From positions 2,057,501-2,121,500 of the forward strand of contig NZ_CP060296.1 of NCBI RefSeq assembly GCF_014303735.1: DNA of 64,000 bases, read 5' to 3'. This DNA comes from Variovorax sp. PAMC28562 (GTDB taxonomy: Bacteria > Pseudomonadota > Gammaproteobacteria > Burkholderiales > Burkholderiaceae_C). The position numbers and the translations under genes were made by a program. The notes beneath the pieces are model-generated. The model made no database searches and was not told where the DNA came from. It saw only the letters and a list, made by a program, of their open reading frames with translations. Numbering within the stretch: the stretch's first letter is position 1; every line of letters begins with the position of its first letter. Positions 17,368-58,926 of the stretch are shown here, piece after piece.

Positions 17368-18375
17368 ATGACCGCCGCACGCCAACGCCACTTGCCTCGC
17401 CACCGCGAGCCGGAGATGGAGCGCGACTTCGCGCGCTCACCGGCGCTCGGCTACGAGGCGCCTGACGAAAGCGGGTTGGTGCGCTGCCTTGCGCACGGCT
17501 TTCCGAGCCCGCTGGTGCGCTGGCATTTTCATGAAGAGTACGAGCTGCACCTGATCACCGAAACGTCAGGCAAGGCCTTCGTGGGCGACTGGATCGGACC
17601 GTTCCAGCCCGGCCATCTTGTGCTGTGCGGCCCCAAGCTGCCGCACAACTGGATCTCGCTCGATGCGCCGGAAGGTGGTGCCGCCGGGCGCGATCGCGTC
17701 ATCCAGTTCCGGCACGAGCCGATCGAACGTGCGGCCGTTGAAATTCCTGAATTGCGCGAGGTCATGCACCTGCTCGATCGCGCTCGCAACGGCATCGAAT
17801 TTTTCGGCTTGTCGGAGCGTGCGCGGCTGCATTGGGATCACATCAAGGCGTCGCGCGGGGTGCGGCGCTTTGGCGTGTTTTGCGACTTCATGGCCGACCT
17901 GTCGCAGTGCACCGACTACCGGTTGCTGTCCAGCGTTCAGATGCAGGGCGTCGAGGGCGATGCCGAGGTCGACCAGATCAACGGCATCGTCAACCGCATC
18001 ACCGCCAACCTCGCCGAGCCGATTGCGATGTCGGAGGTGGCTGCGGAACTGGGCATGAGCGAAAGCAAGTTCAGCCGTTTCTTCAGGCGCTCGACCGGCA
18101 ACAGCTTTACCGATTTCGTGAACCGCGTGCGCATCAACAGCGCGTGCCATCTGCTGATGCAGACCGACCACTACGTCACCGACATCTGCTACCAAGTCGG
18201 CTTTAACAACGTGGCCAACTTCAACCGGCGCTTCCTGGAAATCAAGGGCATGACGCCCAGCGAATTCCGGCGCCAGGCCGATCACCGCTTCGGCGGATCG
18301 ACGGTGCCGTTGAATGCTCTGGCACCGTCGAGTCTTCAGGCGCCGACGCCGACCAGTACCGGCGTCGCGCGGTAG
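17368..18375 (+). CDS. AraC-family transcriptional regulator
   Basis: This 335-residue regulator has an N-terminal cupin-like sensor domain (VRWHFHEEYELHLI, PGHLVLCGPKLPHNW) and a C-terminal AraC/XylS double helix-turn-helix at about residues 205-300 (MSESKFSRFFRRSTGNSF; YQVGFNNVANFNRRF). By position it most likely activates the polyol operon that ends 66 bases upstream, like MtlR in Pseudomonas, with polyol as inducer. Start choice is open: ATG 17368, or ATG 17416 which has GAGCCGGA just upstream and gives 319 residues. Its 3' end overlaps msrA, on the opposite strand, by 40 bases. Confidence 0.88.
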   Translation: MTAARQRHLPRHREPEMERDFARSPALGYEAPDESGLVRCLAHGFPSPLVRWHFHEEYELHLITETSGKAFVGDWIGPFQPGHLVLCGPKLPHNWISLDAPEGGAAGRDRVIQFRHEPIERAAVEIPELREVMHLLDRARNGIEFFGLSERARLHWDHIKASRGVRRFGVFCDFMADLSQCTDYRLLSSVQMQGVEGDAEVDQINGIVNRITANLAEPIAMSEVAAELGMSESKFSRFFRRSTGNSFTDFVNRVRINSACHLLMQTDHYVTDICYQVGFNNVANFNRRFLEIKGMTPSEFRRQADHRFGGSTVPLNALAPSSLQAPTPTSTGVAR

Positions 18376-19124
18376 CGATCGGGAAACACCTTCTTCAGGT
18401 TCTCGATTTTCGGCAGGTCGTTGAAGACGATGTACGGCTGGTTCGGATTGCGCGTCAGGTAGTCTTGGTGATAGCCCTCCGCCGGAAAGAAGGCTTTTTG
18501 CGTTTCGATGGTCGTGGCGATCGGACCGCCGAAAGTCTTGGCCGCGTCGAGTTGGGCGATATAGGCCTTGGCGACGCGCGCCTGCTCGGGCGATTGCGCG
18601 AACACGGTCGAGCGGTATTGCGTGCCCCGGTCCGGCCCCTGGCGATTGAGTTCGGTCGGGTTGTGCGCGACCGAAAAGTAGATCTGCAGGATCCGACCGT
18701 AGCTGATCTGCTTGGGGTCGTAGGTGATGCGAACGGCTTCGGCATGGCCGGTGCTGCCCGAGCCGACCGACTCGTACCTGGCCGTCTTCTCGTCCCCGCC
18801 GGCATAGCCCGACACCGCGCTCGTCACGCCCTTGACGTGCTGGAACACTCCCTGCACGCCCCAGAAACAGCCGCCGGCGACGACGGCCGTTTCGGTGGCG
18901 GCAGTGGACGCCGCGGCGGCACTCGCCGCATCGTCGGCTGGTGCCGGAATGACGACGGCATTCTCGGCAGCGAACGAAGGCACTGCCTTCCAGAGTGCTG
19001 CGCCACCGAGCAATGCCACCGCGGAAAGCAGCGTGCGGCGTGCCAGCACCGAGCGTGTTGCCGATGCGGATGTGGCGGCGGAGACGGTTGCTCTGGCCTG
19101 GTGGTTCGATTGTTTGTTGTTCAT
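18336..19124 (-). CDS. msrA: Exported peptide-methionine (S)-S-oxide reductase
   Basis: MsrA reduces the S epimer of methionine sulfoxide in proteins. The 262-residue product has the catalytic motif GGCFWGVQG with C86, and further family blocks GYAGGDEKTARYESV, STGHAEAVRITYDP, and EGYHQDYL near the C-terminus. Unlike cytoplasmic MsrA (about 180-210 residues) it starts with an 80-residue leader containing LARRTLLSAVALLGGAAL, a hydrophobic and possibly Tat-like segment, then an Ala-rich linker. I infer a periplasmic location. Its ATG overlaps the stop of the DipZ-like gene by four bases, tying it to a thiol-electron donor. The end overlaps the AraC gene tail. Confidence 0.93.
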   Translation of the reverse strand: MNNKQSNHQARATVSAATSASATRSVLARRTLLSAVALLGGAALWKAVPSFAAENAVVIPAPADDAASAAAASTAATETAVVAGGCFWGVQGVFQHVKGVTSAVSGYAGGDEKTARYESVGSGSTGHAEAVRITYDPKQISYGRILQIYFSVAHNPTELNRQGPDRGTQYRSTVFAQSPEQARVAKAYIAQLDAAKTFGGPIATTIETQKAFFPAEGYHQDYLTRNPNQPYIVFNDLPKIENLKKVFPDRYRATPVLVGVGA

Positions 19125-20452
19125 ACGGGTTTCGCGTCCTTTCGTGCTTCTTCCAGCAGTTGCTGAATAACCTGTTCCGACTTTTCGTATTCGCCTTCAC
19201 CGAAGTGGTGAAAGCGGATGCGGCCTTTGGCATCGACGAAGTAATGCGCCGGCCAATAATTGTTGTTGAAGGCGCGCCAGATGGCAAAGCTGTTGTCGAT
19301 CGCGACCGGGAAAGTCACGTCGAGCTCGCTGACCGCGCGCTTCACATTGTTGATGTTTTTCTCGAATGCGAACTCGGGCGCATGCACGCCGACCACAACG
19401 AGCCCTTGGTCCTTGTACTTGCGGTTCCACTCACGCACATAGGGCAGGGCGTTGCGGCAGTTGATGCAGCCGAAAGTCCAGAAGTCGACCAGCACCACCT
19501 TGCCGCGCAATTGCTCGGCCGTGAGCGGTGGCGAGTTGAGCCATTCGACGGCGCCTGAGAAGCCCGGTAACGCGCCTTCGTCAGGCAGCGAGAGCGGGGC
19601 GAAGCGCGGCACGGCGGGCGCCTGCACCTTGATGAAGGCAGCGGGGTCGTTTGCAGTGGGGGGACGGGCAGCATCCGATGTCTGGTCGAGCGCCGCGTGC
19701 GGCCGCAGGCGCTCCAGCAAGCCACGCTCGATCGACGCACCGCCGCTGCCCGACGAGAGCTGCGCGAGCACGCCGGTGTCGAGGCCGAGCGACACCGCTG
19801 CAACGCCGGCCAGCACCGCGACGCCCAGGCCTTTGCGCAACCATTCGCCAGCGCCGATCGTCCGCTTAAGGAAGGCGAACACGCGGCCACCGAGCAGCAA
19901 TGCGGCGGCAAGCGACGTCATGGCGCCGGCCGCGTAGGCCAGCAGCAAGAGAGAGGTGTGAACGGTCGGTCCTTGCAACGCTGCACCGGTGAGGATGAGC
20001 CCGAGCACCGGTCCGGCGCAAGGTGCCCACAAGAGGCCGGTTGCCACGCCGAGCAGCAGCGAGGGCACGACGGGGCTGCGTACGCCGCCGTCAGATGCGA
20101 CGCGCTGGTTTTGGCTGCGCGTCGCCGAATTCAATAGTCCGGAGCCGAGCGCGACCAGCGGCCGCGTGACGCGCTCCGCAAGGCGAGGCGCGATCAGCAT
20201 CACACCCATGACCCCGAGCAGCACGATGGCCGCCATGCGTCCGTATTCATTGGCCTCGACGGCCCAAGCGCCGGCTACCGCACCGAGCGACGCGACGCCT
20301 GCGAAAGTCAGCGCCATGCCGACGAGCAGCGGCAACCCGCTCTTGACGAAAGGCTGGTCGACCCGCGCGAAGACGAAGGGCACTACGGGCAGGATGCAGG
20401 GCGCCAGGATTGTCAGCGCTCCGCCCAGATAGGACAGGATGAAATAGATCAT
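19121..20452 (-). CDS. DipZ-like thiol electron transporter (CcdA domain plus TlpA-type thioredoxin)
   Basis: This 443-residue inner-membrane protein has a CcdA/DsbD-like domain (residues 1-225, about six to eight membrane segments). Its redox cysteines lie in APCILPVVPF (C19) and WAPCAGPVLG (C145). A periplasmic thioredoxin-like domain follows from about residue 290, with active site FGCINCRN (C329, C332). It can carry electrons from cytoplasmic thioredoxin across the membrane and pass them to periplasmic thiol enzymes. The coupled downstream gene is exported MsrA, so this is its likely reductant, comparable to Neisseria PilB, where a thioredoxin-like domain is fused to Msr domains. A role in cytochrome c maturation is the alternative. 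Confidence 0.88.
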   Translation of the reverse strand: MIYFILSYLGGALTILAPCILPVVPFVFARVDQPFVKSGLPLLVGMALTFAGVASLGAVAGAWAVEANEYGRMAAIVLLGVMGVMLIAPRLAERVTRPLVALGSGLLNSATRSQNQRVASDGGVRSPVVPSLLLGVATGLLWAPCAGPVLGLILTGAALQGPTVHTSLLLLAYAAGAMTSLAAALLLGGRVFAFLKRTIGAGEWLRKGLGVAVLAGVAAVSLGLDTGVLAQLSSGSGGASIERGLLERLRPHAALDQTSDAARPPTANDPAAFIKVQAPAVPRFAPLSLPDEGALPGFSGAVEWLNSPPLTAEQLRGKVVLVDFWTFGCINCRNALPYVREWNRKYKDQGLVVVGVHAPEFAFEKNINNVKRAVSELDVTFPVAIDNSFAIWRAFNNNYWPAHYFVDAKGRIRFHHFGEGEYEKSEQVIQQLLEEARKDAKPV

Positions 20453-20497
20453 GGGATCCTCAGATTGGCGAAGCGCTGTCGGGAAAGGCTGGAACGC

Positions 20498-20767
20498 TTA
20501 CTTCTTCATCTCATCCTTGCCCATCGAGTCTTTCTTCATGCCGTCTTTGGCCATGCCGTCTTTGGCCATGCCGTCCTTTGCCATCGAGTCCTTCTTCATG
20601 CCGTCCTTTGACATCGAGTCCTTCGTCATGCCGTCCTTGGCCATGGAGTCTTTGCTCATCGAGCCCTTGGCCATGCCGTCGTCCTTTTTCATTTCGTCGG
20701 CGGCAAAGGCCGAAACGGAACCGATGGCCATGCAGGTGGCGATGAGTGCTGCGGAGAATTTGTTCAT
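20498..20767 (-). CDS. Methionine-rich MxKDx pentapeptide-repeat secreted protein (MrpX-like)
   Basis: This 89-residue protein starts with a signal peptide (residues 1-23, ending SAFAA). The rest is nearly all pentapeptides of the form M-x-K-D-x: eleven full repeats from residue 32 to 86, such as MAKDG, MTKDS and MKKDS. The mature 66 residues hold 13 Met and otherwise Lys, Asp, Gly, Ser and Ala, with no Cys. It belongs to the MxKDx repeat family. In Azospira suillum a Met-rich peptide of this kind (MrpX) soaks up hypochlorite and is repaired by a YedY-type reductase; the neighbours here fit that role. An AAGGAC ribosome site precedes the ATG. Confidence 0.85.
   Translation of the reverse strand: MNKFSAALIATCMAIGSVSAFAADEMKKDDGMAKGSMSKDSMAKDGMTKDSMSKDGMKKDSMAKDGMAKDGMAKDGMKKDSMGKDEMKK
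20502..20676 (-). repeat. 15-bp tandem repeat array inside the MxKDx gene
   Basis: The pentapeptide repeats are encoded by tandem 15-bp units, for example CATGCCGTCTTTGGC repeated in direct succession on the plus strand, with variants such as CATCGAGTCCTTCTT. Near-identical neighbouring units suggest growth and loss by slippage. The reading frame is kept because the unit is a multiple of three. Confidence 0.8.
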
Positions 20768-20875
20768 TTCAGTTGTCCTTCGAGTGAGTCGTTTGAAAAA
20801 TAGAGAAGATAAAAATGGCGCGGTTCGAAATGAACTCGGCCTTGCGCTTCAGTAGCGCTGAGCCTTTCCGGGGGC

Positions 20876-21663
<788 letters not shown>

Positions 21664-21667
<4 letters not shown>

Positions 21668-22359
21668 GCGGCTTCTCCGTTGTTGGCGGCTTCGCTTGTT
21701 GTCTTGCCTGCCGAATTACCGGCATCTCCGCCGGCCCCGGCACGGCCGCTCAGCATCGTGAGCAAGGTCTTCGGCACCAGCGCGACCATCACCAGATGCA
21801 CCGCGACAAAGCCCACCAGCAGCGCCATCGCGACGAAGTGAATGCGGCGGGCAAAGTCATAGCCGCCCAGCAGATCGCGCAACATCGCGAATTGCACCGA
21901 CTTCCAGAGCACCAGGCCCGACAGCACCAGCACGGTGATGTCGAGCATCACGAAGAGGTAGGCGAAACGCTGCACGCTGTTGTAGTGGCGCGGGTCGGCG
22001 TGCGACAGCTTGCCGTGCAGCGCGGCAAGCCCATCGCGCACGATGCCGCCGACCGACAGTGGAAAGAACTTGCGGAACAGCCGACGGCTCACGATGTTGA
22101 GCGAAAGGTAGACGAGGCCGTTGGCGGCCAGCAACCACATCGCCGCGAAGTGCCACTGCAAAGCGCCGCCGAGCCAACCGCCGAGCGTGATCGCGCCGGG
22201 AATCTCGAAAGGAAAGAACGGCGCCGCGTTGTAGATGCGCCAGCCGCTGGTCACCAGCATCAGCACGGCCAGCGCATTGAGCCAATGCGTGATGCGCATC
22301 CAGACCGGGTGAATCGGCTTGAACTTCGGGGTGACTGAATCGCTTTGCATGGCTGGCAT
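21664..22359 (-). CDS. Cytochrome b561-type membrane subunit (YedZ1-like electron donor)
   Basis: This 231-residue integral membrane protein resembles the di-heme b-type cytochrome family of Ni/Fe-hydrogenases and thiosulfate reductases. It has about four membrane segments with conserved His near the first (HPVWMRITHWLNAL), in LQWHFAAMW and in RRIHFVAMALLVGFVAVH. It is expected to take electrons from quinol and feed the coupled periplasmic molybdoenzyme, the part MsrQ plays for MsrP, though it does not look like MsrQ. A second in-frame ATG at 22350 is an alternative start. It opens the minus-strand repair operon and is divergent from the two-component genes. Confidence 0.85.
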
Positions 22360-22385
22360 TCTTGGCCGTACCCGTTGGCCGATTC

Positions 22386-22412
22386 ATCACGAAGAGTTCA
22401 ATTAATCGTGAT
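22386..22412. promoter_or_regulatory. Inverted repeat in the divergent msr-island/two-component promoter
   Basis: ATCACGA and TCGTGAT form a perfect 7-bp inverted repeat around a 13-base AT-rich centre. It lies in the 89-base gap between the cytochrome b gene and the response-regulator gene. Its place and symmetry suit an operator for the adjacent OmpR-type regulator, which is my inference. A second inverted repeat, CCCGCG-N7-CGCGGG, lies at 22417-22435. Confidence 0.45.
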
Positions 22413-22448
22413 AACTCCCGCGGCCATATCGCGGGACAATCCGACGAC

Positions 22449-23171
22449 ATGGAAACTGCCAAACGCGTGCTGATCGTCGAGGACGATGCCCATATCGCCG
22501 AGCTGCTGCGCATGCATCTGCACGACGAGGGCTATGCCGTGACGCACGCCGCCGACGGCCATGCCGGCATCCGCGAACTGGAGCGCGGCAGCTGGGACGC
22601 ATTGATCCTCGATCTGATGCTGCCCGGCGTCGACGGCCTCGAGATCTGCCGCCGCGCCCGCGCCATGACGCGCTACACGCCGATCATCATCACCAGTGCG
22701 CGGTCCAGCGAAGTGCATCGCATCCTCGGCTTGGAGCTGGGCGCCGACGACTACCTCGCCAAGCCTTTCTCGGTGCTGGAGCTGGTGGCGCGGGTGCGGG
22801 CGCTGTTGCGGCGCACCGAGGCGCTGGCGCGCAATGCACGCATGGAGTCGGGCCGGCTCGATCTCGGCAACCTCGGCATCGACCCGGTGGCGCGCGAGGT
22901 GCAGGTCGACGGCAAGCCGATCGAGCTCACGCCACGCGAGTTCGATCTGCTCTATTTCTTCGCGCGCCACCCCGGTCGCGTGTTCTCGCGGCTCGATCTG
23001 CTGAACCAGGTGTGGGGCTACCAGCACGATGGCTACGAGCACACCGTCAACACGCACATCAACCGGCTGCGCATGAAGGTCGAGTCCGACGCCGCGGCGC
23101 CGCGGCGCATCCTGACCGTGTGGGGCCGCGGCTACAAGCTGGCGGCGGATGTCGAGGAGGCCGCCGCATGA
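22449..23171 (+). CDS. OmpR/PhoB-family response regulator
   Basis: This 240-residue regulator has a receiver domain with acidic pocket VEDD, phosphoacceptor D55 in LILDLMLPG and the conserved K105 in LAKPFS. A winged-helix DNA-binding domain follows (ELTPREFDLLYFFARHPGRV; HTVNTHINRLRMK). It is coupled by ATGA overlap to a histidine kinase. Because the pair is divergent from the methionine-repair operon across an 89-base gap, it probably controls it, as HprSR controls msrPQ in E. coli. The ATG at 22449 begins the receiver fold; earlier in-frame codons are not conserved. Confidence 0.93.
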   Translation: METAKRVLIVEDDAHIAELLRMHLHDEGYAVTHAADGHAGIRELERGSWDALILDLMLPGVDGLEICRRARAMTRYTPIIITSARSSEVHRILGLELGADDYLAKPFSVLELVARVRALLRRTEALARNARMESGRLDLGNLGIDPVAREVQVDGKPIELTPREFDLLYFFARHPGRVFSRLDLLNQVWGYQHDGYEHTVNTHINRLRMKVESDAAAPRRILTVWGRGYKLAADVEEAAA

Positions 23172-24721
23172 CGCGCTCGACGCCCTCCGGGTGGTCGATG
23201 CCGTCGAGCCTGTCGACGCGTCTGTCGATCGTCTTTGCGGTGCTGCTGCTGGCGTGCTGCGGCGTGTCGGCCTGGCTGCAGATGGCGGGCAGCGACCGAC
23301 ACGAGCAGGAAGTGACGCAGCGCCTGTCGATCGGCCTGGCCGCGCACATCGCCGGCAATGCCGAGCTGATGAAGCGCGACGGCCTCAACCCGTCGGCCGT
23401 GCACGAGCTGTTCGACCAGCTGATGGCGGTCAACCCGAGCGTCGAGGTCTATTTGCTGGACGCCGAGGGGCGCATCGTCGGACAAGCCGCGCCGCCGGGG
23501 CATCTGAAGCACGACCGCGTCGACCTCGGCCCGGTAAAGCGCTTGCTGGCGGGCGCCGCATTGCCGATTCTGGGCGACGACCCACGCGGCGGACTGGAAG
23601 GACAGGATGTGTCTGGGGCACAAGGCGTGCAACCCTCGCAGGGCGGCCGCAAAGTCTTCAGCGCGGCACCGTTGAAGGTCGATGGCCGCGATGCAGGCTA
23701 TGTGTACGTCGTGCTGTCCGGCGAAGACCGCGAAGCCCTGGTCGCGAACCTGGGCGCCGGCACCGTGCTGCGAACGACGCTGTGGTCGATGGCATGGGTC
23801 GCTTTGCTCGGCCTCATCGCGGGGCTGGTCGCCTTCCGGCTCATCACGCGGCCGTTGCGCCAGCTGACCGACGCCGTGCAACGCTTCGAGCGCGATGGCG
23901 TCGCAGCCATCGATCCGGCAACGCCGGCCTTCGCACAGGTCGCACGCGGCGACGACGAGATCGCCACGCTCGGCAAAGCCTTTCAGAAGATGACGCTGCG
24001 CATTGCCGAGCAATGGCGCGAACTCACCGCGCTGGACCAGCAGCGCCGCGAACTCTTCGCCAACATCTCGCATGACCTCCGCACGCCCCTGACCTCGCTG
24101 CACGGCTATCTCGAAACCCTGCTGATGAAGGCCGACACGCTGGCGCTGGCCGACCGGCGCCGCTATCTCGAGATCGCGCTCGGCCAAAGCCGCAAGGTCG
24201 GCCGCCTGGCGCAGGAATTGTTCGAACTGGCGCGTCTCGAGTCCGGCGTGGTCAAGCCCGACAAGGAGAGCTTCGCGCTGGCCGATCTGGTGCAGGACGT
24301 GTTCCAGAAGTTCGAGCTCGCCGCCGAAGCACGCCGTCAGCGCCTGGTGCCGCAGATTGCGTCCGGCCTGCCGGTGGTCACGGCCGATCTGGGAATGATC
24401 GAACGCGTGCTGACCAACCTGCTCGACAACGCGATCCGCCACACGCCAGAGGGCGGCGAGATCGTCGTGCAATTGCGGCCCGCCGAAGCGGGGGAGGATG
24501 GTGTGGCCGGCGTACAGGTCGAGATCAGCGACACCGGCCCCGGTATCCCCAAAGAGCTGCAGCCCGTCCTTTTCACCCGCCCTGCCTTCTCGTCGTCCGG
24601 CGGCCGCAGTGGCGGCCTCGGCCTGATGATCGTGCGCCGCATCCTGCAACTGCACGGCAGCGAAATCCGCCTGCTCCCCCAACCCGGCAAAGGCGCAGTC
24701 TTCGCCTTTCAGCTCAGCTAA
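23168..24721 (+). CDS. Two-component sensor histidine kinase
   Basis: This 517-residue membrane kinase has a first membrane segment at about residues 16-40 and a periplasmic sensor region to about 200. A second segment, ALLGLIAGLVAFRLI, and a HAMP linker follow. The HisKA box is NISHDLRTPLTSLHGYLE with the phospho-His at residue 302, and the ATPase domain has LLDNAIRHTPEGGEI and SDTGPGIP. The sensor region shows no known domain to me and no obvious Met or Cys cluster, so the signal is unknown. Its start overlaps the response-regulator stop. Transcription ends at a shared hairpin before groEL. Confidence 0.93.
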   Translation: MTRSTPSGWSMPSSLSTRLSIVFAVLLLACCGVSAWLQMAGSDRHEQEVTQRLSIGLAAHIAGNAELMKRDGLNPSAVHELFDQLMAVNPSVEVYLLDAEGRIVGQAAPPGHLKHDRVDLGPVKRLLAGAALPILGDDPRGGLEGQDVSGAQGVQPSQGGRKVFSAAPLKVDGRDAGYVYVVLSGEDREALVANLGAGTVLRTTLWSMAWVALLGLIAGLVAFRLITRPLRQLTDAVQRFERDGVAAIDPATPAFAQVARGDDEIATLGKAFQKMTLRIAEQWRELTALDQQRRELFANISHDLRTPLTSLHGYLETLLMKADTLALADRRRYLEIALGQSRKVGRLAQELFELARLESGVVKPDKESFALADLVQDVFQKFELAAEARRQRLVPQIASGLPVVTADLGMIERVLTNLLDNAIRHTPEGGEIVVQLRPAEAGEDGVAGVQVEISDTGPGIPKELQPVLFTRPAFSSSGGRSGGLGLMIVRRILQLHGSEIRLLPQPGKGAVFAFQLS

Positions 24722-24811: not shown

Positions 24812-26467
<1,656 letters not shown>

Positions 26468-26490
26468 TTACTCCGATGAGATGGGGTTGA

Positions 26491-26781
26491 TTACTTCTCG
26501 ACGACTGCGAACAGGTCGTCTTCCTTCATGACAAGCAGCTCGTCGCCATCGACCTTGACGGTCTGGCCGCTGTACTTGCCGAACAGAACGCGGTCGCCGA
26601 CCTTGACGCTCATGGCGAGCAGTTCGCCCTTGTCGGTCTTCTTGCCCGGGCCAACGGCCAGCACTTCACCCTGATCGGGCTTTTCGGCAGCGTTGTCGGG
26701 GATCACGATGCCCGAGGCAGTCTTGGTTTCGCTTTCAATGCGCTTGACGATCACACGATCGGCCAAAGGACGAAGTTTCAT
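26491..26781 (-). CDS. groES: Co-chaperonin GroES (Hsp10)
   Basis: This 96-residue protein caps GroEL. It starts [16 protein letters not shown] and has the mobile-loop region [31 protein letters not shown] precedes the ATG at 26781; an in-frame extension upstream runs through the promoter leader and is rejected. It is first in the operon, directly downstream of a CIRCE element and a heat-shock promoter. Confidence 0.98.
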
Positions 26782-26864
26782 AGCATCTCCTGAATAGAAA
26801 CGGGTTTGGTTTGAGGGTGCCGGACCGAACGGCTGGCTGCCCAATCGACTGGAGGTGAGCACTG

Positions 26865-26891
26865 TTAGCACTCGTCCTCAGCGAGTGCTAA
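26865..26891. promoter_or_regulatory. CIRCE element (HrcA operator) of groESL
   Basis: TTAGCACTC, nine bases, GAGTGCTAA is a perfect match to the CIRCE consensus. It sits in the groES leader, between the predicted promoter and the coding region, where HrcA represses chaperonin transcription. Confidence 0.97.
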
Positions 26892-57241: not shown

Positions 57242-58234
<993 letters not shown>

Positions 58235-58236
58235 CC

Positions 58237-58926
58237 ATGGCAACGTCCGGGCCCGTGCTCGTGCTCAACAAGCTGTTGCTGCACAAGGCCGCAAAGCCGA
58301 TCATCTTTCTGGTCTGCCTGCTGCCATTTATTCGGCTGGGCTACGGTGCTTTCACCGACGGACTTGGCGCCAATCCGGCGGAATTCCTGATCCGTGCGGC
58401 GGGCGACTGGACGCTGCGCTTTGTCTGCATCGTGCTGGCGGTCACGCCACTGCGTGTGATGACCAAGCTGAGCGGCTTGGCACGATTCCGCCGCATGCTC
58501 GGGCTCTTTGCCTACTTCTACGTCGTGTTTCACCTGCTGAGTTACAGCTGGTTCGACATGGGTTTCGACATTGCAGACATCGCGAAAGACATTGCCAAGC
58601 GGCCGTTTATTCTGGTGGGCTTTGCGGCCTTCGTGCTGCTCACGCCACTCGCGGCAACATCGTTCAATCGGGCTATCAAGGCGATGGGCGCCAAGCGCTG
58701 GCAGATGCTGCACAAGCTGGTTTATGTAATCGCCGGGCTCGGGCTGCTGCACTTCTTCTGGATGCGTGCGGGCAAGAACAATTTCAACGACGTGTTCGTC
58801 TACGCCGCCATCGTCGCAGCACTCCTCGGATGGCGCGTCTGGCACTTTTTCAGCAAGAAAAAGAAGATGCAATCGTCACCGGTGGTGCGTCCTCAGCCTT
58901 CGCGGGGAAGCTCGCTGCGGAGCTGA
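58237..58926 (+). CDS. msrQ: Heme-binding membrane subunit MsrQ
   Basis: MsrQ (YedZ) passes electrons from the quinone pool to MsrP. The 229-residue protein has about six membrane segments with heme-ligand His in YFYVVFHLLSYSWFDMGF and in LHKLVYVIAGLGLLHFFWM, the typical MsrQ layout. The 3' end overlaps lysA, on the opposite strand, by 34 bases. Confidence 0.95.
   Translation: MATSGPVLVLNKLLLHKAAKPIIFLVCLLPFIRLGYGAFTDGLGANPAEFLIRAAGDWTLRFVCIVLAVTPLRVMTKLSGLARFRRMLGLFAYFYVVFHLLSYSWFDMGFDIADIAKDIAKRPFILVGFAAFVLLTPLAATSFNRAIKAMGAKRWQMLHKLVYVIAGLGLLHFFWMRAGKNNFNDVFVYAAIVAALLGWRVWHFFSKKKKMQSSPVVRPQPSRGSSLRS

Follow-up and report, generated by a model that had tools for sequence, protein, structure and literature searches.

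A locus of seven genes was analyzed in a 64,000-nucleotide stretch of DNA (the window) from the soil bacterium Variovorax sp. PAMC28562, whose genome is a single contig of 4.69 Mb (NZ_CP060296.1; the window spans positions 2,057,501 to 2,121,500). The locus is probably an Orh-type, oxidant-responsive operon for methionine redox reactions in the cell envelope, with a methionine-rich peptide and two repair arms. One arm pairs a cytochrome with an MsrP-like molybdoenzyme (quinol-type), and the other pairs a DipZ-like transporter with an exported MsrA (thiol-type). Joint control of both arms by one two-component system looks new. The best support for these parts belonging together is regulatory, with the same two-component system and the same operator found at both arms in ten genomes. 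The features of the locus are listed below.

18336-19124, minus strand: msrA, encoding an exported MsrA (PF01625, E 2e-57; PF01625 and TIGR00401 above cut-off)
19121-20452, minus strand: gene for a DipZ-like membrane thiol transporter with a C-terminal thioredoxin domain (CxxC; Redoxin above cut-off)
20498-20767, minus strand: gene for a secreted MXKDX repeat peptide of 89 amino acids (TIGR02953, penta_MxKDx, 85.8 bits, cut-off 41)
20876-21667, minus strand: gene for an MsrP-like molybdoenzyme with a twin-arginine and lipobox signal (PF00174)
21664-22359, minus strand: cytb, encoding a b561-type membrane cytochrome (PF01292, E 6e-23)
22387-22414, minus strand: 28-bp near-palindromic operator, predicted response-regulator site, inside the divergent gap, TTATCACGATTAATTGAACTCTTCGTGA
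22449-23171, plus strand: gene for an OmpR/PhoB-type response regulator, OrhR-like (PF00072 and PF00486, Response_reg and Trans_reg_C)
23168-24721, plus strand: gene for an OrhK-like histidine kinase of the membrane, part of it taken as extracytoplasmic (HAMP, HisKA, HATPase_c)

The open reading frame list and the family matches confirm these seven genes at the coordinates given in an earlier reading of the stretch (the original prediction), and the gap between the divergent regulator and cytochrome genes is 89 bases, as described there. Both 4-base overlaps named in that reading (cytb with the molybdoenzyme gene, dipZ with msrA) are present. The total is three rather than two, as the regulator and kinase genes also overlap.

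Relatives of the locus are defined here as the best 80 of 576 matches to the molybdoenzyme, and all counts out of 80 refer to these. They can be sorted by what stands divergent from the cytochrome gene. A two-component system is present in 36 of 80, and an extracytoplasmic function (ECF) sigma factor in 14 of 80, 12 of these with NrsF. Neither regulator type adjoins the cytochrome gene in 24 of 80, and a contig end cuts the remaining 6. One ECF and one NrsF protein were confirmed by Pfam. A 28-bp element near TTATCACGATTAATTGAACTTTGCGTGA was called as an operator where at least 21 of 28 bases agreed (the best shuffled score was 18). It is present at 36 of 36 two-component-type loci, at 0 of 14 sigma-type loci, at 10 of the 24 loci without an adjacent regulator, and at both contig-cut loci that could be scored. 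The operator in the window is the sole site in the genome at up to three mismatches to the first pattern, and also at up to two mismatches to a looser pattern (both strands).

A second element, GTAACC-N-CGAA, is found at 10 of 14 sigma-type loci, 0 of 36 two-component-type loci, and 2 of the 24 others. It resembles the published BcrS site, as given in the available part of that paper (PMC8315932). The distribution of the two elements suggests that the effector cassette switched regulator and promoter element together. In a molybdoenzyme tree of 84 sequences, regulator type follows the tree: among the 66 labelled rows it changed 3 times between two-component and sigma; this count is approximate, since many forks are open or weak and two rows (L135 and L134) are long.

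The ten loci with an operator but no adjacent regulator belong to Pseudomonas (nine) and Bordetella (one). A genuine operator would imply a regulator gene somewhere else in each of these ten genomes. Each does have one, 73-77% identical and on a contig other than that of the cytochrome operon, and the next regulator paralogue in those genomes reaches at most 44% identity. The controls were 28 genomes with a locus lacking the operator (14 without an adjacent regulator and 14 sigma-type), searched at E 1e-55. A regulator at the same level is present in 1 of 28, against 10 of 10 (Fisher 2e-8), and the remaining controls hold one 56% and one 46% regulator homologue.

The distant regulator and kinase genes are divergent from msrB followed by msrA in 10 of 10 genomes, with dipZ present in 7 of 10. 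A second operator copy lies between this regulator pair and the msr operon in 10 of 10. The msrB and msrA products of the distant operons have twin-arginine-type signals. Across 11 loci (these ten and that of the control genome G717; 139 kb), 11 sites score at least 20 of 28, and the consensus gave no site when reversed or in any of five shuffled versions. When 40 genomes were scanned, each of the ten had two sites at 0-1 mismatch. Six off-locus sites with two mismatches were checked, and three of these precede msrA (G745), an exported msrB and an exported DipZ-type thioredoxin (both G753). One two-component system thus appears to govern both arms, given the shared operator and the regulator beside msrB-(dipZ)-msrA in ten genomes.

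The core of the locus corresponds to a system described in uropathogenic Escherichia coli. According to the available part of that report, OrhR binds the c3566 promoter, and OrhK/OrhR activate c3566-c3568, which encode a cytochrome B, an MsrP-like protein and a methionine-rich peptide (PMC8550376). An inverted repeat, TCACA-N15-TGTGA, lies before the c3566 promoter, and mutants of c3564-c3567 show poorer growth and survival under tert-butyl hydroperoxide (PMC8550376). The inducing signal is tert-butyl hydroperoxide or H2O2 in E. coli (PMC8550376) and HOCl in Brucella (PMC8315932). The window shares with OrhRK and c3566-c3568 the two-component system, cytochrome B, MsrP-like protein and methionine-rich peptide in the same order. 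Its orthologous regulator and kinase are divergent from this set, and its predicted regulator site is upstream of cytb, where the published system has its inverted repeat. L135, a module on an E. coli plasmid that was matched to the published system by gene content and order rather than by CFT073 sequence, is 66% identical in its proteins to the window in the regulator, 47% in the kinase, 58% in the cytochrome, 61% in the molybdoenzyme and 54% in the peptide. It has TCACA-N15-CGTGA at the operator position. By analogy with the E. coli system, the window regulator may bind its operator and the operon may confer peroxide resistance.

As for the original prediction, novelty of the core is not supported: the core is published already as OrhRK with c3566-c3568 (PMC8550376), and Brucella has a comparable set, bcrXQP, under ECF control (PMC8315932), so far as the available parts of these papers describe them. 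The E. coli operon differs from the window in that it has no DipZ or MsrA as described and continues into hemolysin genes, and the available text reports no operator at a second arm (PMC8550376). The cytochrome and molybdoenzyme stretch is matched in 349 of 5426 E. coli genomes, and none of the matches covers 80%. Of the match places in E. coli, 75 of 362 are on plasmids. In one of them (L131, plasmid pCFSAN029787_02), IS26 and genes for aminoglycoside resistance adjoin the module; the module's regulator gene is broken and no kinase is present within the stretch.

Linkage among relatives, the loss of which had been named beforehand as telling against the original prediction, is kept for the core. 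The cytochrome gene is directly upstream of the molybdoenzyme gene in 76 of 80 relatives (contig ends account for the 4 exceptions), and an MXKDX gene is downstream in 77 of 80. The linkage is looser for msrA, found within 5 kb downstream in 33 of 80, and dipZ or a part of it is rarer still (8 of 80); msrB is found there in 12 of 80. In a survey of 37 genomes of the genus, including the strain itself, a molybdoenzyme orthologue (at least 78% identity) and an MXKDX match above cut-off are both present in 17 and both absent in 20 (Fisher 6e-11). Among those 20, G004 and G029 have a 54-56% identical molybdoenzyme without MXKDX, and G024 has an MXKDX match below cut-off. Chance co-location of the core is ruled out by the linkage in the 80 relatives together with the co-occurrence in the genus. 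A class-wide MXKDX survey was too thin and was left unused: of 369 genomes, 15 had a match at E 0.001, with 3 above cut-off.

The peptide gene is also found with the thiol arm. In L041 an ECF gene is divergent from MXKDX, followed by a FecR-like gene (just below its Pfam cut-off), msrB, dipZ and msrA, and the genome of this locus (G060) has no molybdoenzyme match. L040 has MXKDX, msrB and msrA together, and L158 combines msrB and dipZ with the tail of an MXKDX match. In Achromobacter L067 the gap between peptide and msrA is an msrB. A gap of approximately 600 bp between dipZ and msrA in other genomes was also considered as an msrB; in the case examined, L146, this is rejected, as a longer DipZ fills the gap with its extra C-terminal domain. 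In Bordetella genomosp. 2 (L079, 5664-13567), the set cytb, molybdoenzyme gene, MXKDX and msrA is present as a tandem pair whose match scores are nearly equal, and there are two operator copies 4.8 kb apart.

The molybdoenzyme has R34 R35 and G52 C53 invariant in two alignments (28 and 25 sequences). From the invariant twin arginines and lipobox, it is predicted to be a Tat-exported, membrane-anchored lipoprotein, and in this it is unlike a soluble MsrP. C150, of the molybdenum-ligand type and within CVEGWS, is also invariant. Its structure model, of moderate confidence and used for the fold only (mean pLDDT 66), is closest to MsrP/YedY 1xdy/1xdq (Foldseek E 3e-11). The cytochrome has six near-invariant histidines (H17, H25, H70, H120, H174 and H188; 80 sequences). 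It is presumed to be the electron conduit to the molybdoenzyme, with quinol as the likely source.

The peptide belongs to TIGR02953, above the curated cut-off. Its signal was read by eye, and with the signal cut in this way the mature peptide contains 13 methionines in 67 residues, about one in every five. Peptides of the relatives have a median of 12 methionines in 64 residues, and medians of 0 for histidine and for cysteine (n=77, rough signal cut). A second MXKDX-like peptide is encoded in the same genome (L002, 1477-1836, minus strand). It is 119 amino acids in length, scores below the family cut-off, and has a signal-like start and a glycine-rich part followed by M-x-K/N repeats.

In the thiol arm, the best PDB match of residues 290-440 of the DipZ-like protein is the solved DipZ 2hyx (E 8e-48). 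The N-terminal CcdA-like part was read from two cysteines and from similarity to other DipZ proteins, there being no Pfam match in that part. Compared with a 607-amino-acid relative, the protein is without the extra C-terminal domain of longer DipZ. The window MsrA has a twin-arginine-type signal and a single cysteine, and among solved structures its closest relative is 3bqe, the MsrA domain of a bifunctional MsrA/MsrB. Counting from the catalytic motif on, just one cysteine is present in 39 of 40 MsrAs from the relatives' loci and in 10 of 10 from the distant msr operons; the other MsrA of the window's genome has 5. A single-cysteine MsrA would fit direct recycling by a partner thioredoxin domain. 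The window appears to have the DipZ-fed arrangement, in which a thioredoxin-domain thiol transporter adjoins an exported MsrA or MsrB, and msrA is beside dipZ-like genes in other loci too. A free exported thioredoxin occurs in L239 (5197-5814); a stretch of it shares 81% identity with the DipZ thioredoxin domain, and the gene has an operator-like site to itself. In L029 and L112, MXKDX is followed by similar free thioredoxin domains.

In the kinase, Met86 is invariant (38 of 38) and Met68 is present in 33 of 38; Met86 lies in the segment taken as extracytoplasmic. Oxidation is perhaps sensed through one of these two residues.

The kinship to msrPQ and HprSR put forward in the original prediction is rejected on the family scores, on the identities, and because the window holds a canonical msrPQ elsewhere. 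The regulator shares 38% identity with HprR against 66% with the OrhR-like protein, and it is below the HprR family cut-off (156.5 bits, cut-off 353). The kinase is 23% identical to HprS. The cytochrome matches PF01292 instead of PF01794 and is not an MsrQ. The molybdoenzyme is below the MsrP family cut-off (79 bits, cut-off 207), with 34% identity to MsrP over 134 residues and the CVExWS motif in common. MsrPQ/HprSR of E. coli is like the window in having a molybdoenzyme, a membrane cytochrome and two-component control, but its cytochrome and regulator are not orthologous. The canonical genes, which come after a ccsB gene, are as follows.

57242-58234, plus strand: canonical msrP (481 bits, cut-off 207), approximately 33 kb from the locus
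58237-58926, plus strand: canonical msrQ (172 bits, cut-off 130)

The strain therefore has two MsrP-like systems.

The proposed sequence of events is as follows. The kinase would sense oxidation outside the cytoplasm and phosphorylate the regulator, which would then bind the 28-bp operator and activate the operon of five genes. The MXKDX peptide, once exported, would absorb oxidant, its methionines turning into methionine sulfoxide. In arm 1, the b561-type cytochrome would draw electrons from the quinol pool and pass them to the membrane-anchored molybdoenzyme, which may reduce the methionine sulfoxide of the peptide and of envelope proteins. In arm 2, DipZ would carry electrons from thiols through the membrane, and its thioredoxin domain would receive them and recycle the single-cysteine MsrA. 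The peptide would be the shared substrate of both arms. There is no msrB in the window operon, so the molybdenum arm may be needed for the R-sulfoxide; MsrP accepts both sulfoxide forms. In relatives the same regulator would run the arms as separate operons with one operator each; in the window the arms are fused.

Stated for the family, the proposal has an even chance of being correct. It holds that one Orh-family two-component system commands a two-fuel envelope methionine-redox cycle through one operator kept fused or split. The quinol-fed part would be a non-MsrPQ pair of b561-type cytochrome and molybdenum lipoprotein, the thiol-fed part would be DipZ, MsrB and single-cysteine MsrA, and both would serve one MXKDX peptide.

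Several observations weigh against a two-arm operon under one regulator. Within 5 kb downstream, msrA is absent in 47 of 80 relatives, 12 of which have less than 3 kb of sequence there. The fused dipZ-msrA beside the molybdenum cassette is rare, being complete in the window and L035 only and partial in L054 and L109. The peptide is missing in three relatives (L092, L097 and L101). Both operator and adjacent regulator are lacking in 14 of 80, two of which have the sigma-type element. One control genome (G717, the Pseudomonas of L092) has the regulator without an operator before its cytochrome operon. It does have an operator at msrB (1 mismatch), and its shorter locus L185 shows msrB, dipZ and operator in the same arrangement. 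Three of the six off-locus sites with two mismatches adjoin no gene of either arm, and lone sites of this kind are weak, since the reversed pattern matches six times in the 40 genomes. Of the loci joining the peptide to the thiol arm, L158 is a stretch of just 3.4 kb, and the genome of L040 has a 68% molybdoenzyme relative on another contig.

Some of these points would suit a rather unlikely alternative, in which an ordinary five-gene Orh core, functioning like its E. coli counterpart, stands beside an independent dipZ-msrA envelope repair pair that shares its regulation and does not act on the peptide. The relatives with a core and no downstream msrA agree with it. So do Rahnella L133, where the genes annotated beyond the peptide gene include no msrA, and the E. 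coli case, where the available text places hemolysin genes next (PMC8550376). The pair also occurs without a peptide match in the 4.3-kb stretches L146, L148 and L149. Against such independence, the operator is common to both arms, and the peptide sits with MsrB, DipZ and MsrA in L041, where the genome has no molybdoenzyme match; L040 and L158 have it with some of these genes.

It is also unlikely that the molybdoenzyme reduces some other small S- or N-oxide, or oxidizes a substrate, leaving the peptide to be regenerated by the thiol arm only. The low similarity to MsrP, the cytochrome partner that differs from MsrQ and the moderate confidence of the structure model would allow this, and the cited texts, in their available parts, give no activity measurement for this molybdoenzyme subfamily. 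MsrP/YedY is nevertheless the nearest solved structure, the CVExWS motif is common to both, a methionine-rich peptide adjoins the molybdoenzyme in 77 of 80 relatives, and the E. coli system has a peroxide phenotype (PMC8550376, available part). Very improbable is a role in copper or silver handling, with the peptide as a Cu(I) sponge under a CopRS/CusRS-like two-component system. Methionine-rich sequences can bind Cu(I), and the regulator and kinase match heavy-metal families, although below cut-off. The peptides' medians of no histidine and no cysteine argue otherwise, as do the recurrent partners, which are methionine sulfoxide reductases. Among 17 flanking clusters (at least 5 loci each), 4 were identified, namely NrsF, a LuxR-type protein, a methyltransferase and an ECF factor.

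The two-arm operon can be compared with other published systems. SigF/NrsF-YedYZ-MrpX of Azospira suillum also has a methionine-rich periplasmic peptide, a molybdenum reductase and a dedicated regulator (PMC4623255, PMC8315932). It differs in its ECF sigma factor and promoter element, and it is likened to the window by description rather than by protein comparison. No divergent ECF sigma factor with NrsF is present at the window locus, a two-component system being found instead. BcrS/AbcS-BcrXQP of Brucella has an MXKDX peptide with an MsrPQ-like pair and is induced by HOCl, but it is ECF-controlled, and the available text describes no thiol arm (PMC8315932). In two perchlorate islands, sigF/nrsF-yedYZ-mrpX is joined by exported msrA/msrB, a precedent for the two-arm idea; these islands are under sigF/nrsF and tied to perchlorate reduction, and DipZ is unmentioned in the available text (PMC4623255). 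CcdA-Etrx-MsrAB of streptococci and the periplasmic MsrAB of Haemophilus have an extracytoplasmic Msr with a thioredoxin-type partner, but the available texts mention neither a methionine-rich peptide nor a molybdenum arm (PMC3914529, PMC7034828, PMC9404787). No description of a two-component system over both a molybdenum arm and a DipZ/Msr arm, or of a regulon-wide operator, was found in the searches of open PubMed Central. The belonging-together of peptide, two arms and two-component system is the part of the original prediction that is supported.

Next to the locus, an AraC-family gene (17368-18375, plus strand) is convergent with msrA and shares 40 bases of its 3' end. Behind the kinase gene, groEL/groES (24812-26871, minus strand) are convergent with it. 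Genes for groES/groEL are near the locus in L049, L051 and L118 as well, and a partial groEL is at the edge of L059. The composition profile and transfer RNA scan of the window found nothing unusual.

Sacrificial methionine-rich peptides have been thought to be recycled by a molybdenum reductase, and the thiol-based Msr genes that recur beside them are without explanation in the texts found. The same effector cassette stands under either of two unrelated regulators, and the promoter element differs to match. The short operator predicts response operons across genomes and so defines a directly testable regulon. It offers a route to envelope oxidant-defence genes in Burkholderiales and Pseudomonas, and it could also reveal peptide genes too repetitive for ordinary homology searches.

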